From: Halodesulfovibrio spirochaetisodalis
GTDB taxonomy: Bacteria > Desulfobacterota > Desulfovibrionia > Desulfovibrionales > Desulfovibrionaceae
NCBI RefSeq assembly: GCF_001672295.1
Contig: NZ_JXMS01000035.1
Coordinates: 1 to 36,135, forward strand
Reading direction: 5' to 3'
DNA length: 36,135 nucleotides
The notes under the pieces were generated by a model. That model made no database searches and was not told where the DNA came from. It was given only the letters and a program-made list of their open reading frames with translations. Position numbers and translations under genes: made by a program. Below, in pieces: positions 18,702 through 35,364 of the stretch. Each line of letters starts with the position of its first letter. Position 1 is the stretch's first letter.

Positions 18702-21128
18702 ATGCTTTTTCGTAAACCGTATTCGTTGCAAAAGCAGTTTCTTAGCGGACTGGCTTTGGCTTCTCTTGTGCTTGGGGTAATTTTTGCCATTGGTTTCTAT
18801 ATTCACATGCGTACAGTGCTTGAGGATGAAGTAGAGGCAAAGGCAACCCTCACGTTCACACAGGTTGATGCTGTGCAGAATTATGTGCGCAAAGTGCTGC
18901 GCCCTAAGATGTACGAGATGATACCTGGTACGTTTATTATTGAAGCAATGAGCTCTTCCTACATCTCCCGCAGTGTCATGGAGCATTTTAAAGGCGAGGA
19001 CGGCTATCTGTACCGCCGTGTTTCCATTAATGCCCGTAATCCCCGTTCAGAAGCAAATACTCTTGAACGCGGCTTTGTTGATTACTTCAGGGCACACCCC
19101 ACTGAATCTCTCTGGAAAGGATATAAAGACATAGCAGGACAGCGTTATTATGTAATGGCGCGTCCTGTAACCTATGGTGAAAGCTGTATGCGCTGCCACG
19201 GTGACATTAATGATGCCCCTGTGGAAGTTGTGCAGCAATATGGCAAGCGCGGGTTTAATAAAGACGTGAATTCCATTGGCGGGGTTGATCTGGTCGGTAT
19301 TAACGTCATGTCCAGCCTAAGCCAGCTTCAGCAGACCATTATCGGGTATTTTGCGTTTTTTGTAGTAGGTGCCATTGTCTTTTTCTCCACCACTCATGTG
19401 CTGTTTAAAGTTTTAGTTGTAGATAATATTAAACGAATCTCCTCTGTGTTCCGAAAGAATTTAGAAGAGACCGGTGGAACCGGCTTGTTGGACAGCATGG
19501 CGGAGCAGGACGAGATCGAAGAGCTTGAGTCCGGTCTGCTGGAGTTGAACAATCACTTGTTCAGCGCCAGAGCACAGCTCAAAGAGTATGCGGAAAACCT
19601 GCGTACAATGGTTGATGAGCGGACAGAGGAGCTGACACACGAAGCTTTGGAACGTCGTTCTGACGTTGCGTTGTTTATCACCATGCTTTCGCTGATGCAG
19701 AAAAGCCGTTCCCGTGGCGAATTGATGAATCTTGCCATGCCTGAAATTGGAAACCGTTTCAGAGCGACTACGGTAACATATATATGTACGTTTGCTTCCA
19801 ACAACAGCTATTCATGGCCGAGCGGGGCAGAAGCGCAAAAGTTGCCGGAAGACTGGCTTGATATCATTACAGAAAGCGGTATCAAGTTTGAAGACAACCG
19901 TATCATTATCTCTGTAGAATCCAGTGCGGGCAATGCTGAAGGGCTGCTTATCCTGTACTGGGATGACCCGCACTATGTGAAGTTGCAGGATCACGGTTTG
20001 ATGCGTGCTCTTGGCAGACAGCTTGGAGCGGCAGGTGAGAACCTTGTTGCTCTTGATAACATGATGCGTCAGATGCAGACATTGCAGACAATTGTAGAAG
20101 GCATCACAGACCCTCTGGTTCTTATGGATGCTTCTTGTAATGTTCTGACAGCAAACCGTGCCGCATGCAATCTTTCGACTGAGTTGAGTGGCGGTCGCGA
20201 TAACAGCGGAAATATTTTGAGTATGCTGTCGGATTACAATGCGGCTGACGGATGCTCAATGCAGTTGGCGCTTTCCCGCAAGTCACCATTTGTGGATGAA
20301 GTGGTGATTGATGACACCCGTACATTCTCTATTGGTATCTACCCTGTAATACAGGGGAATAACCTGCCGGATCGTGTGGTTGTTCATGTGCGTGAAACCA
20401 CGCTTGAAAAACGTATGCTTGCCCAGATGCAGCAGCATGAGAAGCTGGCGACTACCGGTAAGCTTGCCGCAGGTCTTGCCCATGAGATCAACAATCCACT
20501 TGGTGTGATCTTATGCTATGCCGAATTGCTGAAAGAAGACGCAGCGGATGAGCAGCAGAATCTGGATATTGATATTATCCTGCGCCATACCCGGCATGCG
20601 CAGCGTATCTTGCGTGACCTGCTTGATTTTGCACGTCCGAAGGTAAGCCGGAATGGTACAGCTGATGCTGCGCAGGTGGTGCAAAGTATCTCTGAGGTAT
20701 TCTCCGTACAGGCGGCAGCCAAGCGTGTGGATCTTCGTGCGTCGGTTATGACAGAACAGGTGTTTGTCCCGATGGGCGAACAGGAGTTGGAGCAGGTTCT
20801 TTCTAACCTTGTGATCAACGCTATTGATGCTGTGGAAGAGAATAAAGGAAAGATTCATTTAAGTGCGGTGACGCAGGAAGATTCTGTCCTCATCAGCATT
20901 GAAGATAACGGCGAAGGTATTTCGTCTGAGAATATGAACAGAATTTTTGATCCGTTCTTTACTACAAAAGGGCCGGGATCCGGTACTGGATTGGGACTTG
21001 CCATTGTATATGGCATGGTGACTGACCTTGGCGGAAAGGTCGAAGCAACATCCAGTACTGCATTAGGCGGGGCAAAGTTCGTTGTGGAGCTTCCAGTAGC
21101 AACGTCTTGTGCCCTTGGAGAAACGTAA
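18702..21128 (+). CDS. Haem-binding (Tll0287/DUF3365-type) sensor histidine kinase
   Basis: This 808-residue membrane kinase has TM1 at about 14-34, an extracytoplasmic DUF3365/Tll0287-like domain (about 40-205) with a c-type haem motif CMRCH at 162-166, and TM2 at about 212-235. A helical linker and coiled coil follow (about 245-320), then a GAF-like segment, a PAS-like segment (about 465-580), HisKA with the phospho-His H594 in GLAHEINNPL, and HATPase with DNGEGIS and GTGLGLAIVYG. Haem attachment suggests sensing of redox state or a gas ligand outside the membrane. The stop overlaps the start of the regulator gene by one base, so the pair is coupled. The likely target is the sigma-54 exporter operon upstream. 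Confidence 0.88.
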   Translation: MLFRKPYSLQKQFLSGLALASLVLGVIFAIGFYIHMRTVLEDEVEAKATLTFTQVDAVQNYVRKVLRPKMYEMIPGTFIIEAMSSSYISRSVMEHFKGEDGYLYRRVSINARNPRSEANTLERGFVDYFRAHPTESLWKGYKDIAGQRYYVMARPVTYGESCMRCHGDINDAPVEVVQQYGKRGFNKDVNSIGGVDLVGINVMSSLSQLQQTIIGYFAFFVVGAIVFFSTTHVLFKVLVVDNIKRISSVFRKNLEETGGTGLLDSMAEQDEIEELESGLLELNNHLFSARAQLKEYAENLRTMVDERTEELTHEALERRSDVALFITMLSLMQKSRSRGELMNLAMPEIGNRFRATTVTYICTFASNNSYSWPSGAEAQKLPEDWLDIITESGIKFEDNRIIISVESSAGNAEGLLILYWDDPHYVKLQDHGLMRALGRQLGAAGENLVALDNMMRQMQTLQTIVEGITDPLVLMDASCNVLTANRAACNLSTELSGGRDNSGNILSMLSDYNAADGCSMQLALSRKSPFVDEVVIDDTRTFSIGIYPVIQGNNLPDRVVVHVRETTLEKRMLAQMQQHEKLATTGKLAAGLAHEINNPLGVILCYAELLKEDAADEQQNLDIDIILRHTRHAQRILRDLLDFARPKVSRNGTADAAQVVQSISEVFSVQAAAKRVDLRASVMTEQVFVPMGEQELEQVLSNLVINAIDAVEENKGKIHLSAVTQEDSVLISIEDNGEGISSENMNRIFDPFFTTKGPGSGTGLGLAIVYGMVTDLGGKVEATSSTALGGAKFVVELPVATSCALGET

Positions 21129-22543
21129 TGGGACACGATGAACAAAAACAAGTCATCCTGCTTGTAGATGACGAACAGGATTTTGCCCGCGGGTTGCAAC
21201 GACTGATTGTGCGCAAATTTTCAGACCTCGAAGTGTTGCTTGCGCATACTGCGGAAGACGCGCTTGAGGTGTTAAAAGTAACCCATGTGGACATTATGCT
21301 TACAGATATGCTCATGCCGGGAATGACCGGTATGGAACTGCTGCCGCTTGCGCTTGAGCAGCGTCCAGATCTCTCAATGGTGATGTTGACTGCTCACGGA
21401 ACCATTGAAACTGCTGTACAGGCTGTTAAGCACGGTGCATATGACTTTTTAACCAAGCCTGTGGAGCCTGCTGAGCTGTTCAGGGTTGTGGCAAAGAGTC
21501 AGGAGCGCGCTAAACTGATGAATGAGAATCGCCTGCTCAAAGAACAGGTTCGTTCATTCAATACCTCTGACGAGCTTATTGGCGAGTCACCTGCCATGCA
21601 GCAGCTTAAGCTTTCAATTCAAGCTGTGGCGCATTCCGATTACACCGTGCTTGTTCGTGGTGAGTCCGGAACGGGTAAAGAGATGGTAGCCCGTATGATT
21701 CATCAGCTGAGCACTCGTAATGACAATAATTTTTTAAGCGTGAACTGTCCTGCCATTCCTGAGCAGCTTCTGGAAAGTGAGCTGTTTGGTCATGTAAAAG
21801 GGGCATTCACCGGTGCAGATAAAGATCACAAAGGGCTTTTTGCTACAACAAACGGCGGTACCCTGCATCTGGACGAGATTGGTGATATTTCATTTCAGGT
21901 TCAGACAAAACTGTTACGTGTGTTGCAGGAAGGCGAAGTGCGTCCTGTGGGGGCAAATTACAACGAGCATGTTAATGTCCGTGTTGTTGCCTCAACAAAT
22001 CAGGAGCTGGAAAAGCGTATTCAGGATAAGGCATTCCGTGAAGACTTGTATTATCGCCTGAATGTGCTCACTGTGATGATTCCACCGTTACGTGAACGAG
22101 TGACGGATATCCCGTTGCTGACGTATCATTTCCTGCGTCAGTCCTGTAAGGAAATGGGACTGCCGGAAAAGAGTATTGCACCGGACGTGCTGACCTATCT
22201 GTCTACAAAACAGTGGCAGGGGAACGTGCGTGAATTGCAGAACTACGTGCGCCGCCTGACTGTGTTCTGTTCCGGTAACTCTGTGGACATGAGTGTTGTA
22301 CGCCTTGTGGATAGCGGGACATTACCGACTGTGGTTGCTGCGGACAGTGATGCTTCAGGAATTACACAGTACAAGGAAGCGAAGAATAAAGTTATCGATG
22401 ACTTTACACAGGCGTATGTGTCTGACCTGCTGAAAAGTACAAAAGGAAATATCTCGGAAGCGGCTCGTGCCTCGGGTCTTTCCCGTGTGGCTCTGCAGAA
22501 GATTCTGGGCAGGCTTAATATGGATGCTGCAAGTTTCCGGTAA
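21128..22543 (+). CDS. NtrC-type sigma-54-dependent response regulator
   Basis: This 471-residue regulator has an intact receiver (acidic D14/D15, phospho-acceptor D60 in IMLTDMLMPGM, Lys in LTKPVEPAE), an AAA+ domain with Walker A GESGTGKEM near 178-186 and GAFTGA at 225-230, and a C-terminal Fis HTH (SEAARASGLSRVALQKIL). It is partner of the haem-binding kinase (TAATG stop/start overlap). It should activate sigma-54 promoters; the nearest good one is at 16270 before the YeiH exporter. Unlike the activator at 13451-14800, all phosphorylation residues are present. Confidence 0.92.
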   Translation: MGHDEQKQVILLVDDEQDFARGLQRLIVRKFSDLEVLLAHTAEDALEVLKVTHVDIMLTDMLMPGMTGMELLPLALEQRPDLSMVMLTAHGTIETAVQAVKHGAYDFLTKPVEPAELFRVVAKSQERAKLMNENRLLKEQVRSFNTSDELIGESPAMQQLKLSIQAVAHSDYTVLVRGESGTGKEMVARMIHQLSTRNDNNFLSVNCPAIPEQLLESELFGHVKGAFTGADKDHKGLFATTNGGTLHLDEIGDISFQVQTKLLRVLQEGEVRPVGANYNEHVNVRVVASTNQELEKRIQDKAFREDLYYRLNVLTVMIPPLRERVTDIPLLTYHFLRQSCKEMGLPEKSIAPDVLTYLSTKQWQGNVRELQNYVRRLTVFCSGNSVDMSVVRLVDSGTLPTVVAADSDASGITQYKEAKNKVIDDFTQAYVSDLLKSTKGNISEAARASGLSRVALQKILGRLNMDAASFR

Positions 22544-23780: not shown

Positions 23781-24377
23781 ATGAAAACTTTTTTCTTTTT
23801 TGGTGACTCCTTAACTCTCGGTGTGAACGACCCCTCCCTGAGTGGTTGGATTGGGCAGTTAAGCGTAATCTCCGGTGTACCGGTGCCTCCTAGTACCTTT
23901 TACAATATGGGAGCCCGTAAACATTCAAGCCTTGCCATAGCAAAACGGTGGAAACAGGAAGTCGAAGCCCGACTTATTCCGGAAAGTGATCCGCGTCTGC
24001 TTTTTTGTTTTGGCGTAGTGGATATGGCTGCCCCTGCTGGTGTGCAGACCGTTTCTATTGAAGATTCTATTAACGCTGCACGCACCATCTTGGTTGATGC
24101 AGTGGAAACGTACGGTAAAAGTAATATTGTTATGGTCAGTCCGTTTCCGGTTGTGGACATTACCCACCGTGAGCGAATTGGCAAACTTTCTGCGGCATAT
24201 CTTGATATGTGCGCGGATTACGATATTCCTTACGTGGATGTATTTACCCGACTGGAACATCACGAACCGTACTTGAACACGTTGTCTGATGGCATTCACC
24301 CCGACAAAGATGGCAATGCACTTATTGCGAACGCGCTTCATGAGCATGAGCATATTGTGTTGTGGATGAATAGCTAG
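23781..24377 (+). CDS. SGNH/GDSL-type hydrolase
   Basis: This 198-residue protein has block I FFGDSLTLG with nucleophile S10 and block V SDGIHPDKDGN with D170 and H173, completing the catalytic triad. The Gly and Asn oxyanion blocks are less standard (FGVVDMA where GxND is usual). No signal peptide is present, so it is cytosolic. Esterase or acyl hydrolase activity is expected; the substrate is unknown. AGGAG precedes ATG 23781. It is monocistronic and terminated immediately downstream. Confidence 0.87.
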   Translation: MKTFFFFGDSLTLGVNDPSLSGWIGQLSVISGVPVPPSTFYNMGARKHSSLAIAKRWKQEVEARLIPESDPRLLFCFGVVDMAAPAGVQTVSIEDSINAARTILVDAVETYGKSNIVMVSPFPVVDITHRERIGKLSAAYLDMCADYDIPYVDVFTRLEHHEPYLNTLSDGIHPDKDGNALIANALHEHEHIVLWMNS

Positions 24378-24436
24378 TTTAGGCATTCAACGGGTGCTTC
24401 GTATTGCCGCTGGCAAGCCCGTATGTAATGTATATG

Positions 24437-24562: not shown

Positions 24563-24628
24563 GTGAATTCTTTGAATTTTACAATGAACCTCCCCGGGCA
24601 TAGATAGAGATCAACGGAGGGAAACGAC
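24563..24628 (+). promoter_or_regulatory. Promoter/leader of peptide gene 1
   Basis: It holds the block GTGAATTCTTTGAATTTTAC shared with copy 2, then GCATAGATA and the leader ending AACGGAGGGAAACGAC. TTTTAC, an 18-base gap and TAGATA can be read as a weak -35/-10 pair. The strong GGAGG lies eight bases before the ATG. Confidence 0.55.
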
Positions 24629-24745
24629 ATGAAATACATTATGAGTGCTTGGAAAAAATTAGAGACTGCTCTGGTAGACGCAACTTTTGCTGAAGTTGGT
24701 TGTGGAACCATTTGTACTTGCTGCAACAAACGTTGCGGAAAGTAG
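24629..24745 (+). CDS. Cys-rich microprotein, array copy 1 (38 aa)
   Basis: The product starts MKYIMSAWKKLETALVDATF and ends in a Cys cluster, CGTICTCCNKRCGK, with five Cys (25, 29, 31, 32, 36). The N-terminal 24 residues look like an amphipathic helix. A GGAGG ribosome site and its own terminator frame the gene. Copies 2 and 3 share residues 1-10 and 20-27 exactly; differences concentrate in the last 10 residues. I do not recognise the family. A RiPP-like precursor or a metal/Fe-S-binding microprotein are both possible; no maturation enzyme is adjacent. Confidence 0.8.
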   Translation: MKYIMSAWKKLETALVDATFAEVGCGTICTCCNKRCGK

Positions 24746-24746
24746 A

Positions 24747-24769
24747 AAAAGCGCCGAAAGGCGCTTTTC
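24747..24769 (+). terminator. Terminator of peptide gene 1
   Basis: AAAGCGCC-GAAA-GGCGCTTT stem with a GAAA tetraloop, directly after the stop. Confidence 0.88.
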
Positions 24770-24825
24770 TGCGTTTTAGAGGGGTGAATGTTTTCATGTA
24801 AGCTCTCATGTCATGTTTGAGATAG

Positions 24826-24851
24826 CCTGTAGTTGAACTACAGGTTTTTTT
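24826..24851 (+). terminator. Second terminator in the spacer after peptide gene 1
   Basis: CCTGTAG/CTACAGG stem followed by seven T, 57 bases beyond the first terminator. A counterpart exists after copy 2, so a second short transcript per unit is possible. Confidence 0.7.
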
Positions 24852-24983
24852 GTGCGTTCCAGCCTGGTATTTTGAGTATACGCGGTATAAAAAATGTCGT
24901 TTTTATCCGTGGTGTTATGTGGTTGTAACCGTAGTTGCCTGATTTGTAAGTAGATATGAATATCATAAAAAAATATTATGAAT

Positions 24984-25052
24984 TGGATGAATTCTTTGAA
25001 TTTTACTTTGTACCCCCTCAGGCATAGATAAAGATCAACGGAGGGAAACGAC
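24984..25052 (+). promoter_or_regulatory. Promoter/leader of peptide gene 2
   Basis: It holds ATGAATTCTTTGAATTTTAC followed by GGCATAGATA and an identical AACGGAGGGAAACGAC leader. Nearly all bases match copy 1 from the EcoRI-like GAATTC onward, except about 15 bases in the middle. Confidence 0.55.
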
Positions 25053-25166
25053 ATGAAATACATTATGAGTGCCTGGAAAAAATTAGAGACTGCTCTGGTA
25101 GACGCAACCTTTGCTGAAGTTGGTTGTGGAACCTATTGTACTGGCTGTAATCGTTGCAGAAAGTAG
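25053..25166 (+). CDS. Cys-rich microprotein, array copy 2 (37 aa)
   Basis: The first 27 residues are identical to copy 1; the tail is CGTYCTGCNRCRK with Cys at 25, 29, 32 and 35. The spacing C-X3-C-X2-C-X2-C offers four ligands and includes the CX3CX2C pattern of iron-sulfur sites, although nothing proves metal binding. Strong GGAGG ribosome site, own terminator. It is too short for standard gene calling. Confidence 0.8.
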   Translation: MKYIMSAWKKLETALVDATFAEVGCGTYCTGCNRCRK

Positions 25167-25190
25167 AAAAAGCGCCGAAAGGCGCTTTTC
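25167..25190 (+). terminator. Terminator of peptide gene 2
   Basis: AAAAGCGCC-GAAA-GGCGCTTTT stem, almost identical to that of copy 1. Confidence 0.88.
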
Positions 25191-25465
25191 TTTTTGTGTC
25201 TTGAACGAAAAAAGATAATGTGAATATTTTCACTAACTGTGTGTTCTTTTGCACGCATCTATATATACGATAACAGTGATCAGATTTTTCCTGCGGAAAT
25301 GCTTCTGCAGGTTTTTTTGTGGATAAAATTTACTTCAAATTATGAAACTGAAGTCTTCTCCTATATATTTTTACGGGCAATATATGCCTAAATCAAAAAG
25401 ATGATCTGCTCAACTATCCGATATTGTATGATAAATGTGTTTAATGAAAAAAACTTATGAACATA
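25191..25465. other. Spacer between peptide genes 2 and 3
   Basis: No ORF is supported. The terminator at 25290-25319 lies in it, with AT-rich sequence (about 25320-25465) after it. Confidence 0.5.
25290..25319 (+). terminator. Second terminator in the spacer after peptide gene 2
   Basis: CCTGC.GAA/TTC.GCAGG stem followed by eight T-rich bases, 100 bases after the first terminator. It is equivalent to the one at 24826-24851. Confidence 0.7.
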
Positions 25466-25531
25466 CTAAAAAGTTTGAATTTTACTTCAGGCCATCTCAT
25501 GCATATTTAGTCTCCAACGGAGGGAAACGAC
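25466..25531 (+). promoter_or_regulatory. Promoter/leader of peptide gene 3
   Basis: GTTTGAATTTTACTTC and the CCAACGGAGGGAAACGAC leader are conserved with copies 1 and 2, but the GAATTC block is lost and the -10 region reads GCATATTTAG. Confidence 0.5.
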
Positions 25532-25645
25532 ATGAAATACATTATGAGTGCTTGGAAAAAATTTGAAGAAGCTTTGGTAGACGTAACTTTTGCAGAAGTA
25601 GGTTGCGGAACCATGTGTACTGGCTGCAGACGTTGCAGAAAGTAA
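25532..25645 (+). CDS. Cys-rich microprotein, array copy 3 (37 aa)
   Basis: It starts MKYIMSAWKKFEEALVDVTF, has Cys at 25, 29, 32, 35 in CGTMCTGCRRCRK, and differs from copies 1-2 at residues 11, 13 and 18 and in the tail. Several third-base changes keep the amino acid, e.g. in GAAGTAGGTTGC, suggesting selection on the peptide. It is the most diverged copy. It sits 126 bases upstream of the C_GCAxxG_C_C gene, behind its own terminator. Confidence 0.8.
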   Translation: MKYIMSAWKKFEEALVDVTFAEVGCGTMCTGCRRCRK

Positions 25646-25647
25646 AA

Positions 25648-25672
25648 AGTGCCGAAAGGCACTTTTTTTTTG
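25648..25672 (+). terminator. Terminator of peptide gene 3
   Basis: AAAGTGCC-GAAA-GGCACTTT stem followed by seven more T. The stem base pairs are covaried relative to copies 1 and 2 (C-G to T-A), supporting a real hairpin. Confidence 0.88.
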
Positions 25673-25771: not shown

Positions 25772-26533
25772 ATGACTCGTTCTATAGAAAATAAGGTGCA
25801 TGAGACCCTGTCACAGCTGGGAAGCAGCACCGGTTCACATAAAAAGAAATCAGTAACGCTGGAAACCGTGTTTCCTGAAAATCCGGCGTGGCAGCCACAG
25901 GTTGTTGACCCTGGCCGTGGGGAACGTATGGCGTATGATGGCTGTATCGGTGGATATGGTTGCTGCTATGCTGCGTTCTATAGCATCATCGGGCAGATGG
26001 CTGAAAAATACGGTGCTCCGTACAAAGATTTTCCGTTTCACAGCATGAAGGCAGGGCGCTCCGGTGTGGGCGGCTGGGAGTCCACATGCGGTGCACTCAC
26101 AGGCGCAGCATTTGCCTACGGCCTCTTCTACGAGAAGAAAGAGCACAACGAGCTGGTGCGTGAATTATTCCAGTGGCACGATGTAACCGCACTGCCAGTG
26201 TACCGTCCGGCTGTTAACTGTAAGCTGGATGTAGATATTCCAACCAGCATCAGTGGTAATGTGTTGTGCACAACATCAAAAGCCCGCTGGGCGTATGTAT
26301 CAGGCTTTCCTGTTAAATCAAAAGAGTGCTCAGAGCGCTGTGCACGTCTTACAGCAGATGTCGCTCGCAAGGCCATTGAGATTTTGAATGCGAAAATTGA
26401 CGGTACCTTCGTGCCGACAGTTGATAAGAATGCCAAGATGCAGTGCGACTTGAGTACAGATTCTACACAAGACGATGCTGGTTCAGTTATTCTTGTAAAA
26501 CAACCTGAGTTTCGTTCTGTAAAGGCTGGCTAG
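25772..26533 (+). CDS. C_GCAxxG_C_C family putative redox protein
   Basis: This 253-residue protein contains the family pattern with Cys at 58, 64, 65, then C106 in CGALTG, and C186/C190 in KECSERCA; further Cys at 150, 166 and 225. The domain is described as a putative redox-active protein and is related to the split-Soret cytochrome c group, but no CxxCH haem motif is present here. ATG 25772 is chosen for the AGGAG five bases upstream; ATG 25769 is too close. It follows the peptide array on the same strand. No signal peptide or Tat motif was seen, so a cytosolic Fe-S protein is likely. Confidence 0.8.
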   Translation: MTRSIENKVHETLSQLGSSTGSHKKKSVTLETVFPENPAWQPQVVDPGRGERMAYDGCIGGYGCCYAAFYSIIGQMAEKYGAPYKDFPFHSMKAGRSGVGGWESTCGALTGAAFAYGLFYEKKEHNELVRELFQWHDVTALPVYRPAVNCKLDVDIPTSISGNVLCTTSKARWAYVSGFPVKSKECSERCARLTADVARKAIEILNAKIDGTFVPTVDKNAKMQCDLSTDSTQDDAGSVILVKQPEFRSVKAG

Positions 26534-31360: not shown

Positions 31361-34300
31361 CTATTTGTTCCTTTTACCGGAAAGGAACTCGGCCGGAAGG
31401 TTCAGCCACTGTTCCAGAACGGTCAGTGCAGGTTCGTAGAAGTTTGAGCCGCTGACATGAGACTTCTCTGTGCTGATGTCTGTTACACCACAACCGTGTG
31501 TGTGACAGATGCGCTCAGATTTGTTCATGAAGGAAAGGATCAAACGAGCCACACCGTAGGAAATTGCCATCACCAGTGCGCAGGAAATAGCGTCCCATGC
31601 GCCGGAACCGGTAGCGATACCGCCAAGGTTGATATCAAGCGGAGCAAAGCCGGTTGATGCGATGATGGAGTTTACAGGAGCCAGCAGGAGTCCCGGGAAT
31701 ACGCCGAACAAAATGGACGCACCAGCCAGAACTGCCATTGGCATGCGCATAAGCTTGCCTACCTCTGTTACATTCTCGAGAGCCGGATTGAGCTTGCCGA
31801 AGAATGCGGAGTGCAGGAACTTGATCATGTATGCAAGGGTAAGCACGGAGCCGGAAAGCGCAAGCAGTGCAAGCAGCACTTCGCCTTCATCCATAAGGCC
31901 GTGGTAGAGCATCCACTTGGAGGTAAAGCCGCTGAGTGGCGGAACACCTACAGCAGAGAATGCTGCAATGGCGAATACGGTGAGTGTGAACGGCATCTTG
32001 CGACCAATACCGGACAGCTCGTCGAGTGTGTCGGCATGGGTACGGTACATGATTGCGCCTGCTGCAAGGAACAGAAGGTTTTTAAAGAACATGTGGTTAA
32101 CAAAGTGCATCAGACCACCGGATACGGTCAGCGAGGTAGCCATACAGATACCGAGCAGAACGTATGCCATCTGGGAAACGGTGGAGTAAATCAACACGCG
32201 TTTGATAGAGGTCTGCATTACTGCTTTGAGAGCAGCAAAGAAGATGGTGATGCCTGCAACCCATGCAAGAGTGTACATGATTGCCGGCTGCGCCCAGTAA
32301 CCGGATTTGCCTGCAAAGAATCCTGCACCGCCGATGATGAAGAAGAGCTTCATCAGTCCGAAAGGACCAGTTTTAAGCAGTACGGAGGAAATGTAACCGG
32401 ACACCGGAGTCGGTGCGGTTGCAGGGTGCATCCAGATATCGATTCGCAGTGGAAGCATTGCTGCTTTCATTGTGAAGCCGAGAGCAATGAATGCCATTGC
32501 GTACATACCGGTGGAACCCGGCATGGTGCTGAACGCTTGAGCAAGTTCACTGAATCCGAACACACCGGACTCTGCTGTGAGCATTGCTACGCCGAAGAAC
32601 ATGAAGGAAGCGCCGAGAATGTTGAATGCGAAGTACTTGAAGCCTTCACGCAGAGCACTCTTGGATTCTTCATGAATGATGATGGAGTAAAGCGGCCAAC
32701 TGGACATGATCTCCCAGAAGAGGAAGAACGTGAAGATGTTGGAGCTTGTTGCAACACCCAGCAGGCCGCCGATCATCAGCAGGAACAGGGTGAAGAAGCG
32801 CCACTGGGTGTGGCTGTGATCCATGTAGTTCGCAGAGTATACAACGTTGAGGATACCCATGAGGATAATGAGCAGGCTGTAGCTGATGCTCAGCGCGTCA
32901 AGTGAACCCCATGAGAAACCAAGACCGATGAATGCAAGAACCAGAACGCCTACTGTGCCCCATGCAGATTTTTCCAGATTTTCACGCAGGATGTACGGAA
33001 CTACTGCGCCAATCATTGGAATTGCTGCATACAGTGGCCAGCCGATGGCTAGATCCGGTAACGGCTGTGCTGCAATTTTACCTGCTGCAAGCAGGGATTG
33101 GAGTACAGGAACGATAACTACATAGTTTAGCTGCGGGAACACGCCAAGCAAGAGACATGCTGTAGCGAGTACGCCCATAGGAATAAGACAGGTAAGCGGT
33201 GCTTCTGCAACCGGCTTGCCTTCGTATTTTTCAAAGAAGAGGACGCGGACAAGACGGGTGTAGTAGAATACGCCCATTAAGCCACCGGCAAGAATCAGTG
33301 CTGCCAGAAGCGGCTGACCTGCATCCATTGCTGCGTACACCATGAGGAACTTACTTACGAAACCGCCGAATGGTGGAAGTCCCATAATACCCATAAGTCC
33401 CACAAACAGACAGAGACCGGTCAGCGGCATTGCGCGTCCGAGACCTTTCAGTTTGTTGATGGAGTATGTTCCGGAGCGCATGATAAGCATACCAACGCCG
33501 AGGAACAGCAGGTTTTTCATGATTGCATGGTTTACAACGTGCGCCATGGAACCAGTAAGGGAAAGGTATGTGCCAAGGCCGAGCACTGCTGCAATCTCAC
33601 CAACTTGCGCCATGGTGGAGTATGCGAGCATGCGCTTAACGTTGGTCTGCGTAAGTGCTTTAACTTCTGCAAACAGCAACGTTGTTGCGCCGAGCACAGT
33701 GATCAGCGTTGTGATATCAAATGCGCCTTCCTGATTAAAGTATCCAGCTCCGAAGAGGGCAAAGCATACCATGAGCATGCCGTAGATACCGGTCTTGGTA
33801 AGAATACCGGAGAGCGGGCCGGAAATGGAGGAAGGTGCCACAGGGTGCGCAGCAGGCAACCAGCTGTGGAATGGTACCAGACCTGCTTTTACGGCAAAGC
33901 CGAAGAAGCAGAGCAGTGCAGCGATGCCGGCAAGGACAGGGCTCACGTTCCCTGTTGCCTGCGCAATAGCAGCATATTCAAAGCTGCCTGTTGCACTGTG
34001 GATAAGGAAGATACCGAACAGCAGAGCATATGCACCGGCCGCACACATGAAGAAGTACTTGAAACCGGCGTCAAATGCGTCCTTAGTTTCTTCGTGGATA
34101 ACGAGGAAGTAGGAGCTGAAGGTCATGAGTTCCCAGAAACCATAGAGAGAACCAAGGTTCTGGGTAAGTGTAAGACCGATAAGGGACCCCTGCATGAGCA
34201 GCAGGAAGAACCAGTATCTGGTCGCGTTTTCTTTATGAATGTATCCGCCGGAGTACACGGTAACAACAAGGCCGATACAGGCCATGATGCATGCAAAAAG

Positions 34301-35146
34301 CTTTGAGAGCGCAGGTGCGCCAGTAGCGGCTGTTGCGATAAGTGCAACTACGGAAAGTGTGGTTGCAAGTACGAAACGCCAGTCAAAGCGTTTAAGCGCT
34401 TCCGGAATGAATCTGGACGGAATAAACAGCAGGAATGCGCCAACATACGGAAGCGAAGCAGCGAGCGGCCAGTGAGCTTCAAACTCAGGGAAGCTTGCTT
34501 CGGAACCGAATATTGTCAGAACCGGATTGAGAATCAGGTCCGGGAAAACATGCGATACAGCAACAACTGCGCCGAGAAGGAGGGTAATACCGCCGAGCAC
34601 AGTTGAAGTAGCAGGTTTGTCGTCTGCGTTTTCCGGAGATTCAAAACAGATGGTTTGAACAATTTTGATGGTGTACCACAAGGCAATACAGTTGCTTACA
34701 AGCATCATAATTGCCGGAAGGTACATTTCTGCGCTGACAAGACCGTATGTCAGAGCCAATTTGCTTACTGCACCTTTAAACGGAGTAAATCCGATGGCGG
34801 AAAACATGGCAAACCCGAAAATACCTGCGAAGAGCGGAGCGCGTTTAAAGGCACCGCGGAGGTTGGTGAGATCAAGTTTGCCGAACTGTGTTGCCAGCCC
34901 GATAAGTGCAAAAACAGCCAGACCTCTGATAGAGAGCTGATAGAAAAGATGTAATGCAGCACCTGCATTACCGGAGATTGTTCCTGTCCCGAACCCTGCA
35001 AGGACAGCCCCGATTTCCGCAATGCTGGAAAAAAGGAGAACAGTTGTTAATTTGTTGAACTGCTTACAGGCCCAATACTGAGCAAGCAGTAGAATCAAAC
35101 ACCCAATGTAGACTGAGAAGTGAGAAGTGGTAACTTCAAGTAACAT
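31361..35146 (-). CDS. cooM: Giant ion-pumping membrane subunit CooM (fused NuoL/M-like modules)
   Basis: This 1261-residue polytopic protein is the ion-translocating subunit of the Coo complex. It shows one N-terminal half module (about 1-190) and two full antiporter modules. Each full module has the TM5 Trp-Glu (FWELMTFSSYF; FWEIMSSWPLY) and TM7 Lys (VKAGLVPFHSWLP; MKAAMLPLRIDIW). Module ends contain VNHAIMKNLLFL and VNHMFFKNLLFL. ATG 35146 was chosen over the longer frame because AAGGAG lies 10-11 bases upstream and the hydrophobic segment starts soon after. Length is close to R. rubrum CooM. It is first in the operon. Confidence 0.92.
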   Translation of the reverse strand: MLLEVTTSHFSVYIGCLILLLAQYWACKQFNKLTTVLLFSSIAEIGAVLAGFGTGTISGNAGAALHLFYQLSIRGLAVFALIGLATQFGKLDLTNLRGAFKRAPLFAGIFGFAMFSAIGFTPFKGAVSKLALTYGLVSAEMYLPAIMMLVSNCIALWYTIKIVQTICFESPENADDKPATSTVLGGITLLLGAVVAVSHVFPDLILNPVLTIFGSEASFPEFEAHWPLAASLPYVGAFLLFIPSRFIPEALKRFDWRFVLATTLSVVALIATAATGAPALSKLFACIMACIGLVVTVYSGGYIHKENATRYWFFLLLMQGSLIGLTLTQNLGSLYGFWELMTFSSYFLVIHEETKDAFDAGFKYFFMCAAGAYALLFGIFLIHSATGSFEYAAIAQATGNVSPVLAGIAALLCFFGFAVKAGLVPFHSWLPAAHPVAPSSISGPLSGILTKTGIYGMLMVCFALFGAGYFNQEGAFDITTLITVLGATTLLFAEVKALTQTNVKRMLAYSTMAQVGEIAAVLGLGTYLSLTGSMAHVVNHAIMKNLLFLGVGMLIMRSGTYSINKLKGLGRAMPLTGLCLFVGLMGIMGLPPFGGFVSKFLMVYAAMDAGQPLLAALILAGGLMGVFYYTRLVRVLFFEKYEGKPVAEAPLTCLIPMGVLATACLLLGVFPQLNYVVIVPVLQSLLAAGKIAAQPLPDLAIGWPLYAAIPMIGAVVPYILRENLEKSAWGTVGVLVLAFIGLGFSWGSLDALSISYSLLIILMGILNVVYSANYMDHSHTQWRFFTLFLLMIGGLLGVATSSNIFTFFLFWEIMSSWPLYSIIIHEESKSALREGFKYFAFNILGASFMFFGVAMLTAESGVFGFSELAQAFSTMPGSTGMYAMAFIALGFTMKAAMLPLRIDIWMHPATAPTPVSGYISSVLLKTGPFGLMKLFFIIGGAGFFAGKSGYWAQPAIMYTLAWVAGITIFFAALKAVMQTSIKRVLIYSTVSQMAYVLLGICMATSLTVSGGLMHFVNHMFFKNLLFLAAGAIMYRTHADTLDELSGIGRKMPFTLTVFAIAAFSAVGVPPLSGFTSKWMLYHGLMDEGEVLLALLALSGSVLTLAYMIKFLHSAFFGKLNPALENVTEVGKLMRMPMAVLAGASILFGVFPGLLLAPVNSIIASTGFAPLDINLGGIATGSGAWDAISCALVMAISYGVARLILSFMNKSERICHTHGCGVTDISTEKSHVSGSNFYEPALTVLEQWLNLPAEFLSGKRNK

Positions 35147-35364
35147 GCAATTCTTGCTCCTTATGAAAGAAGACAATACCGATTGCCCAGACGCACCTAT
35201 AGCAGGTACATCCACGGTATTCTTCCGATACAACACAGAGGAAACCCCATTTTCCTCTCATAGCCAGGCTATGTTCAACCTGTGTTGTTGGTTCTTTCAA
35301 TCCGAATCCAATTCGCCGTCTCAATACGGCGCAGTACTTCCTGTAAATCGAACTGATCACCTGC

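Follow-up and report, generated by a model that had tools for sequence, protein, structure and literature searches.

Bacterial metallothioneins are small Cys-containing proteins, and the Ldr and Ibs arrays are tandem repeats of the type I toxin-antitoxin class. The homologues of split-Soret cytochrome c share four Cys residues, which we take to be the holder of an iron-sulfur centre. Here we analysed a window of 36,135 nucleotides from the marine sulfate-reducing bacterium Halodesulfovibrio spirochaetisodalis (contig NZ_JXMS01000035.1), in which a tandem array encodes microproteins with a predicted helical front and a Cys cluster at the end. Profile searches (Pfam and NCBIfam) and a PDB search gave no usable match of the peptides to a known family (best PDB E-value 1.2), and Rfam yielded no match in the window at the gathering threshold. 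The literature covered on Halodesulfovibrio, split-Soret cytochromes and Desulfovibrio microproteins, excluding supplements and most subscription papers, does not name the peptides, nor do the passages considered from PMC5701242.

Organization of the tandem array

Three open reading frames follow one another on the forward strand of the window. Gene 1 (first type, 24629..24745) encodes 38 residues with five Cys, and gene 2 (middle type, 25053..25166) and gene 3 (last type, 25532..25645) each encode 37 residues with a C-x3-C-x2-C-x2-C pattern. All three open with MKYIMSAWKK. Each has AACGGAGGG as its ribosome site, with AACGGAGGGAAACGAC located 5' of the ATG, and, likewise on the forward strand, a terminator-like stem (24747..24768, 25168..25189 and 25644..25667, respectively) that overlaps the stop codon or begins no more than 2 nt from it. 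The positions, the shared start, the Cys patterns and the signals around each copy agree with the preliminary description, and the observation of three tandem genes for Cys-tailed microproteins is confirmed. The repeat proved to be tandem as described, but larger: the unit spans 214 nt with the promoter-like block included, and the other two copies are 80% and 77% identical to the middle copy.

Distribution and history of the array

A search of 59 genomes, the window's own included, gave 22 matches in six genomes, all of Halodesulfovibrio. Two of them, G001 and G002, have contigs broken within the array, with ends that form exact overlaps of 136 and 99 nt respectively, so that each contributes one copy twice. 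The distinct copies are thus 20, with three in the window's genome, three in G001, three in G002, two in G005, four in G008 and five in G009, where the numbers for G001 and G002 could be higher, as exact repeats may have been lost in assembly. The array, of two to five copies, occupies a single syntenic location in six of the ten genus genomes examined; one of the four negative genomes, G003, is only 86% complete. The expected homologues beyond the window locus were found in five further genomes of the genus, whereas the 347 genomes of the order gave no other strong match. With a 17-peptide profile, E-values below 1e-20 were confined to the same six genomes, and 26 other genomes gave matches of 3.9e-4 or weaker (limit 0.05). 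Of two scans of further genome contigs, the first returned nothing and the second a single relative, a Halodesulfovibrio metagenome-assembled genome with its match at the same position as in G002.

The synteny of the array region is real. A GDSL-type hydrolase gene (23781..24377, forward strand) precedes the array, and a split-Soret-like gene (25772..26533, forward strand) lies directly 3' of it, followed by convergent hydrogenase-type genes; this order was assigned by Pfam for the window and by eye from the open reading frames of the relatives, with the flanks split between two contigs in each of G001 and G002. Of the ten genus genomes, only the six with the array have the GDSL gene and a close split-Soret-like gene (at least 74% identity), and the region marks one clade. 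Co-occurrence of array and split-Soret-like gene is therefore not independent evidence of a functional tie. Elsewhere in the window, positions 18702-22543 hold a histidine kinase, whose Tll0287-like sensor domain contains CxxCH, and then a sigma-54 response regulator. Positions 31361-35236 hold a single membrane open reading frame of 1291 residues, by eye a fusion of two antiporter-like hydrogenase subunits, which has a similar length in L029 and L031.

When 19 units were placed in a tree, the last-position copies group together in five of six cases (98/92), and so do the middle copies (five of six, 96/96), which suggests that the array positions predate the species. First-type copies cluster within G008 and within G009, and the three copies of G001 break the positional grouping in a weakly supported part of the tree (78/72).

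Coding constraint on the peptide frame

All 20 copies keep the frame open across their first 32 codons, and each of the other five frames is stopped in 6 to 20 of them; the frame-destroying changes that would have spoken against a gene were absent from the relatives in this stretch. The suggested comparison of replacement with silent changes, made over the same 32 codons, gave a pS of 0.366, a pN of 0.096 and a pN/pS of 0.26 (all pairs of the 20 copies, which are not independent), and the variable columns are distributed over the three codon positions as 11/11/23. When the same changes were placed at random, more replacements than observed resulted for seven of the nine pairs selected (P below 0.05), whereas two pairs gave P-values of 0.21 and 0.20. 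The peptide frame is under purifying selection overall. Altogether, homologues in six genomes of the genus, the open frame and the pN/pS ratio support the reading of these genes as microprotein genes.

Promoter-like blocks, terminators and spacers

Every array copy examined has a promoter-like block, a ribosome site and a terminator. In the window, the blocks read TTGAATTTTAC ... GCATAG for copy 1 (24572..24603), TTGAATTTTACTT ... GCATAG for copy 2 (24996..25027) and TTGAATTTTACTT ... GCATAT for copy 3 (25475..25506), all on the forward strand. TTGAATTTTAC is kept in all 20 upstream regions, and a GCATAG-like element lies 15 nt after it beyond a variable spacer, with CATA in 19 of the 20; the third copy of G008 deviates. 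We read the conserved block as a putative promoter. A scan of the array for sigma-70 promoters found three candidates against 3.8 expected, none of them at the conserved block. The exact 13-base TTGAATTTTACTT occurs 21 times in ten genomes. Because 19 of these matches sit at arrays, no wider regulon was found; the two others are at G001:C4:120257 and G007:C16:364488.

Between positions 24380 and 25760 there are eight terminator-like sites of all kinds, compared to 0.9 expected by shuffling. The Cys codons lie just 5' of the terminator that overlaps or closely follows the stop codon, an arrangement that would suit Cys-rich leader peptides attenuating a downstream gene. Nevertheless, with a promoter-like block and a terminator for every copy examined, only the last copy could affect another gene. 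Moreover, no structured 5' leader emerged (the consensus fold of 18 aligned rows has 0 pairs), and the helix is conserved as part of a protein module (see below). Attenuation is the least probable of the readings considered here.

Besides the stem at the stop codon, a second terminator-like hairpin occurs in spacer 1 (24824..24846) and in spacer 2 (25290..25311), both on the forward strand. In all 13 spacers folded, such a hairpin of -7.3 to -13.3 kcal/mol stands before a T-run, once with a mismatch in the stem. In addition, a GTGAAAATTTTCAC-like palindrome, in the window GTGAATATTTTCAC at 25220..25233 (forward strand), lies 3' of all six middle-type units, although imperfect in G008 and G002. 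The second hairpins, together with units of ~420-500 nt in most genomes that carry one short open reading frame each, recall type I toxin-antitoxin repeats whose spacers encode a small RNA. We regard this as highly improbable: the peptides lack a hydrophobic membrane segment by hydropathy (19-residue means of at most 1.32 in 18 distinct peptides) and carry a net charge of +3 to +5, and the T-run of the second hairpin lies on the forward strand, so that the hairpin would not end an antisense RNA. Nor was there consistent pairing of spacer and mRNA, with z-scores from -2.7 to +1.0 over the 13 spacers (two at -2.7 and -2.4), in a rough test whose spacer ends were set by pattern and in some cases cut short.

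The front half shares a helical module of the phylum

AlphaFold predicted a helix over residues 2-23 and a tail without regular structure. The best model has a mean pLDDT of 78 and a modest pTM of 0.39, the other four having mean pLDDT values of 64-70. Rather than being a leader peculiar to these genes, the front half belongs by profile comparison to a short helical module, here termed FAEAGE, that is found throughout the phylum: in small proteins, in stress-protein-like proteins and in the tails of response regulators. Weak matches of the peptide profile outside the genus fell repeatedly on response-regulator tails and on a small protein, the others being chance-like; Pfam confirmed a receiver domain in both of the two response-regulator-type proteins scanned. 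In the reverse direction, a FAEAGE profile from which the peptides had been left out placed exactly these three at the top of 826 open reading frames of the window (E-values 2.2e-5 to 5.4e-4, the next frame having 0.72), and a model from free-standing proteins again ranked them as the top three (0.0015 to 0.0078). This reverse test is not fully independent, since several rows of the model had been found via profiles containing the peptides.

Among 395 genomes of the phylum, 55 (the window's own included) matched a FAEAGE profile at E-values up to 0.01, and 40 regions chosen from these matches, together with five further loci, contain 98 matching open reading frames, often several per region. 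In L162, L179, L155, L163 and others, several FAEAGE frames lie beside stress-protein-like, receiver-like and permease-like ones, most of these names being assigned by reading. Among the FAEAGE frames of fewer than 110 residues in those regions, at least four Cys after the motif occur only in the genus peptides. Ten proteins were scanned in each of Pfam and NCBIfam, and in these proteins no model of either library scored at its cut-off within the module: TPR_4 matched only marginally (E-value 0.0067, under the cut-off), and a Usp domain in one protein lies outside the module. No literature on FAEAGE was found in the sources covered, with supplements and most subscription papers outside the scope. 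A free-standing member was predicted to have two helices, H3-18 and H22-29 (AlphaFold, mean pLDDT 80). By alignment and predicted structures, the second helix, which follows FAE-x-G, is absent from the peptides and the Cys tail stands in its place, so that they may be regarded as a truncated variant of the module.

In the window's own genome, a stress-protein-like gene carries FAEAGE too, as does a small protein encoded two genes before an open reading frame that reads like a TauE/SafE permease. This cluster would fit peptides that act through the helix only, as adaptors or competitors, for instance on FAEAGE-bearing stress or transport regulators, with a Cys tail that is merely structural. 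We consider this rather unlikely, as the Cys are among the most conserved positions of the tail in the 17-peptide alignment.

The conserved Cys tail and the RiPP question

Throughout the alignment of 17 peptides, C25, C29, C32 and the last Cys do not vary. The preliminary description had read a conserved front and a variable Cys tail as the pattern of RiPP precursors. On such a reading, the front would be the leader, and an enzyme encoded elsewhere would modify the tail as the core. The tail instead is conserved across the species of the genus, and the interpretation in the description is as a whole partly supported; its alternative, Fe-S or metal-binding microproteins, may hold. The peptides are indeed small and multi-copy with a Cys-rich end, and a PqqD-like (RRE-type) gene exceeds the cut-off in each of the six array genomes and, of the four negative ones, in G006 only, with a match under the cut-off in the array-negative G007. 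In the window's genome, the PqqD-like gene lies on another contig than the array, and no maturase-like frame was found in the 13 kb around it by reading of open reading frames and by a CxxxCxxC pattern rather than by profiles. By contrast, the array-negative G006 has a CxxxCxxC frame that reads like a radical SAM protein at ~2.7 kb from its PqqD-like gene. YcaO genes are present in all ten genus genomes. The array genome G001 carries six YcaO matches, which would favour a precursor function, but the other five array genomes have one each, of a kind also present in the array-negative G004, G006 and G007. In G001 alone, four YcaO-domain matches lie within 7 kb (G001:C14:73506-80446). As the tail is conserved rather than hypervariable, and as none of the 12 flanking proteins of the window scanned with Pfam proved to be a modifying enzyme, the RiPP reading is not favoured and seems to us improbable.

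A split-Soret paralogue without CxxCH sites follows the array

The gene directly 3' of the array encodes 253 residues that match split-Soret cytochrome c (PDB 1h21) with an E-value of 3.6e-50, and score 228 bits against NF047622, below its NCBIfam cut-off of 400. Of the 347 order genomes, 118 contain relatives, and 36 loci were examined. All six array-linked proteins keep C64, C106, C166 and C190, the Cys common to split-Soret homologues, and have neither a CxxCH nor a His after C166. The other 30 loci have one or two CxxCH each, and the His in 29, the remaining one being a fragment. A simple pattern detected a TAT-like motif in 23 of these 30 and in none of the six. A normal split-Soret copy, with two CxxCH and a TAT-like start, is located elsewhere in the genome (L072:6826-7623).

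A proposed adaptor function

We tentatively propose, as a guess at function to which we give somewhat less than even weight, that the array yields an abundant cytosolic adaptor with a docking helix and a metal, Fe-S or thiol site. Each array gene would be its own transcription unit, and the array would supply large amounts of a small cytosolic protein; such a high output is suggested by the multiple copies, each with a promoter-like block to itself. The amphipathic FAEAGE helix of residues 2-23 would serve as the docking element, and the basic tail of four or five Cys (C-x3-C-x2-C-x2-C), which replaces the second helix of the module, would bind a metal ion or Fe-S cluster or act via its thiols. 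The helix of a recurring module joined to a tail of four invariant Cys suggests a carrier or adaptor, in which the helix would bring the tail to a partner; as a further guess, this partner might be the adjacent split-Soret-type protein that lacks CxxCH. Against this proposal count the terminator that separates the array from the paralogue, the lack of a match to any known family, and the PqqD-like gene of the array genomes, which leaves some weight on the RiPP reading. More speculatively, and with little likelihood in our view, FAEAGE might be a general docking code of Desulfobacterota, from which Halodesulfovibrio made a mass-produced Cys-cluster carrier that docks on the haem-less split-Soret protein, an exchangeable peptide-borne centre replacing the covalent haems.

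Whatever the function, the locus holds a family of conserved microproteins that is multi-copy, has a promoter-like element of its own and is absent from all libraries scanned. It also indicates a helical module of wide occurrence for which these libraries gave no model, and shows a branch of split-Soret cytochromes without CxxCH.

Comparison with known systems

The peptides resemble bacterial metallothioneins in being small and Cys-containing, but have only four or five Cys in 37-38 residues, all in the tail, and gave no profile match in Pfam or NCBIfam. The likeness to split-Soret cytochrome c (1h21; NF047622) concerns the neighbouring gene only, which shares its sequence relationship and four Cys, and differs in the absence of CxxCH haem sites, of the His after C166 and of a TAT-like motif. 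With the FAEAGE proteins of Desulfobacterota, the peptides appear to share an amphipathic helix that ends in FAE-x-G and, with the free-standing forms, the small size, whereas those proteins carry a basic tail, a stress-protein domain or a receiver domain.
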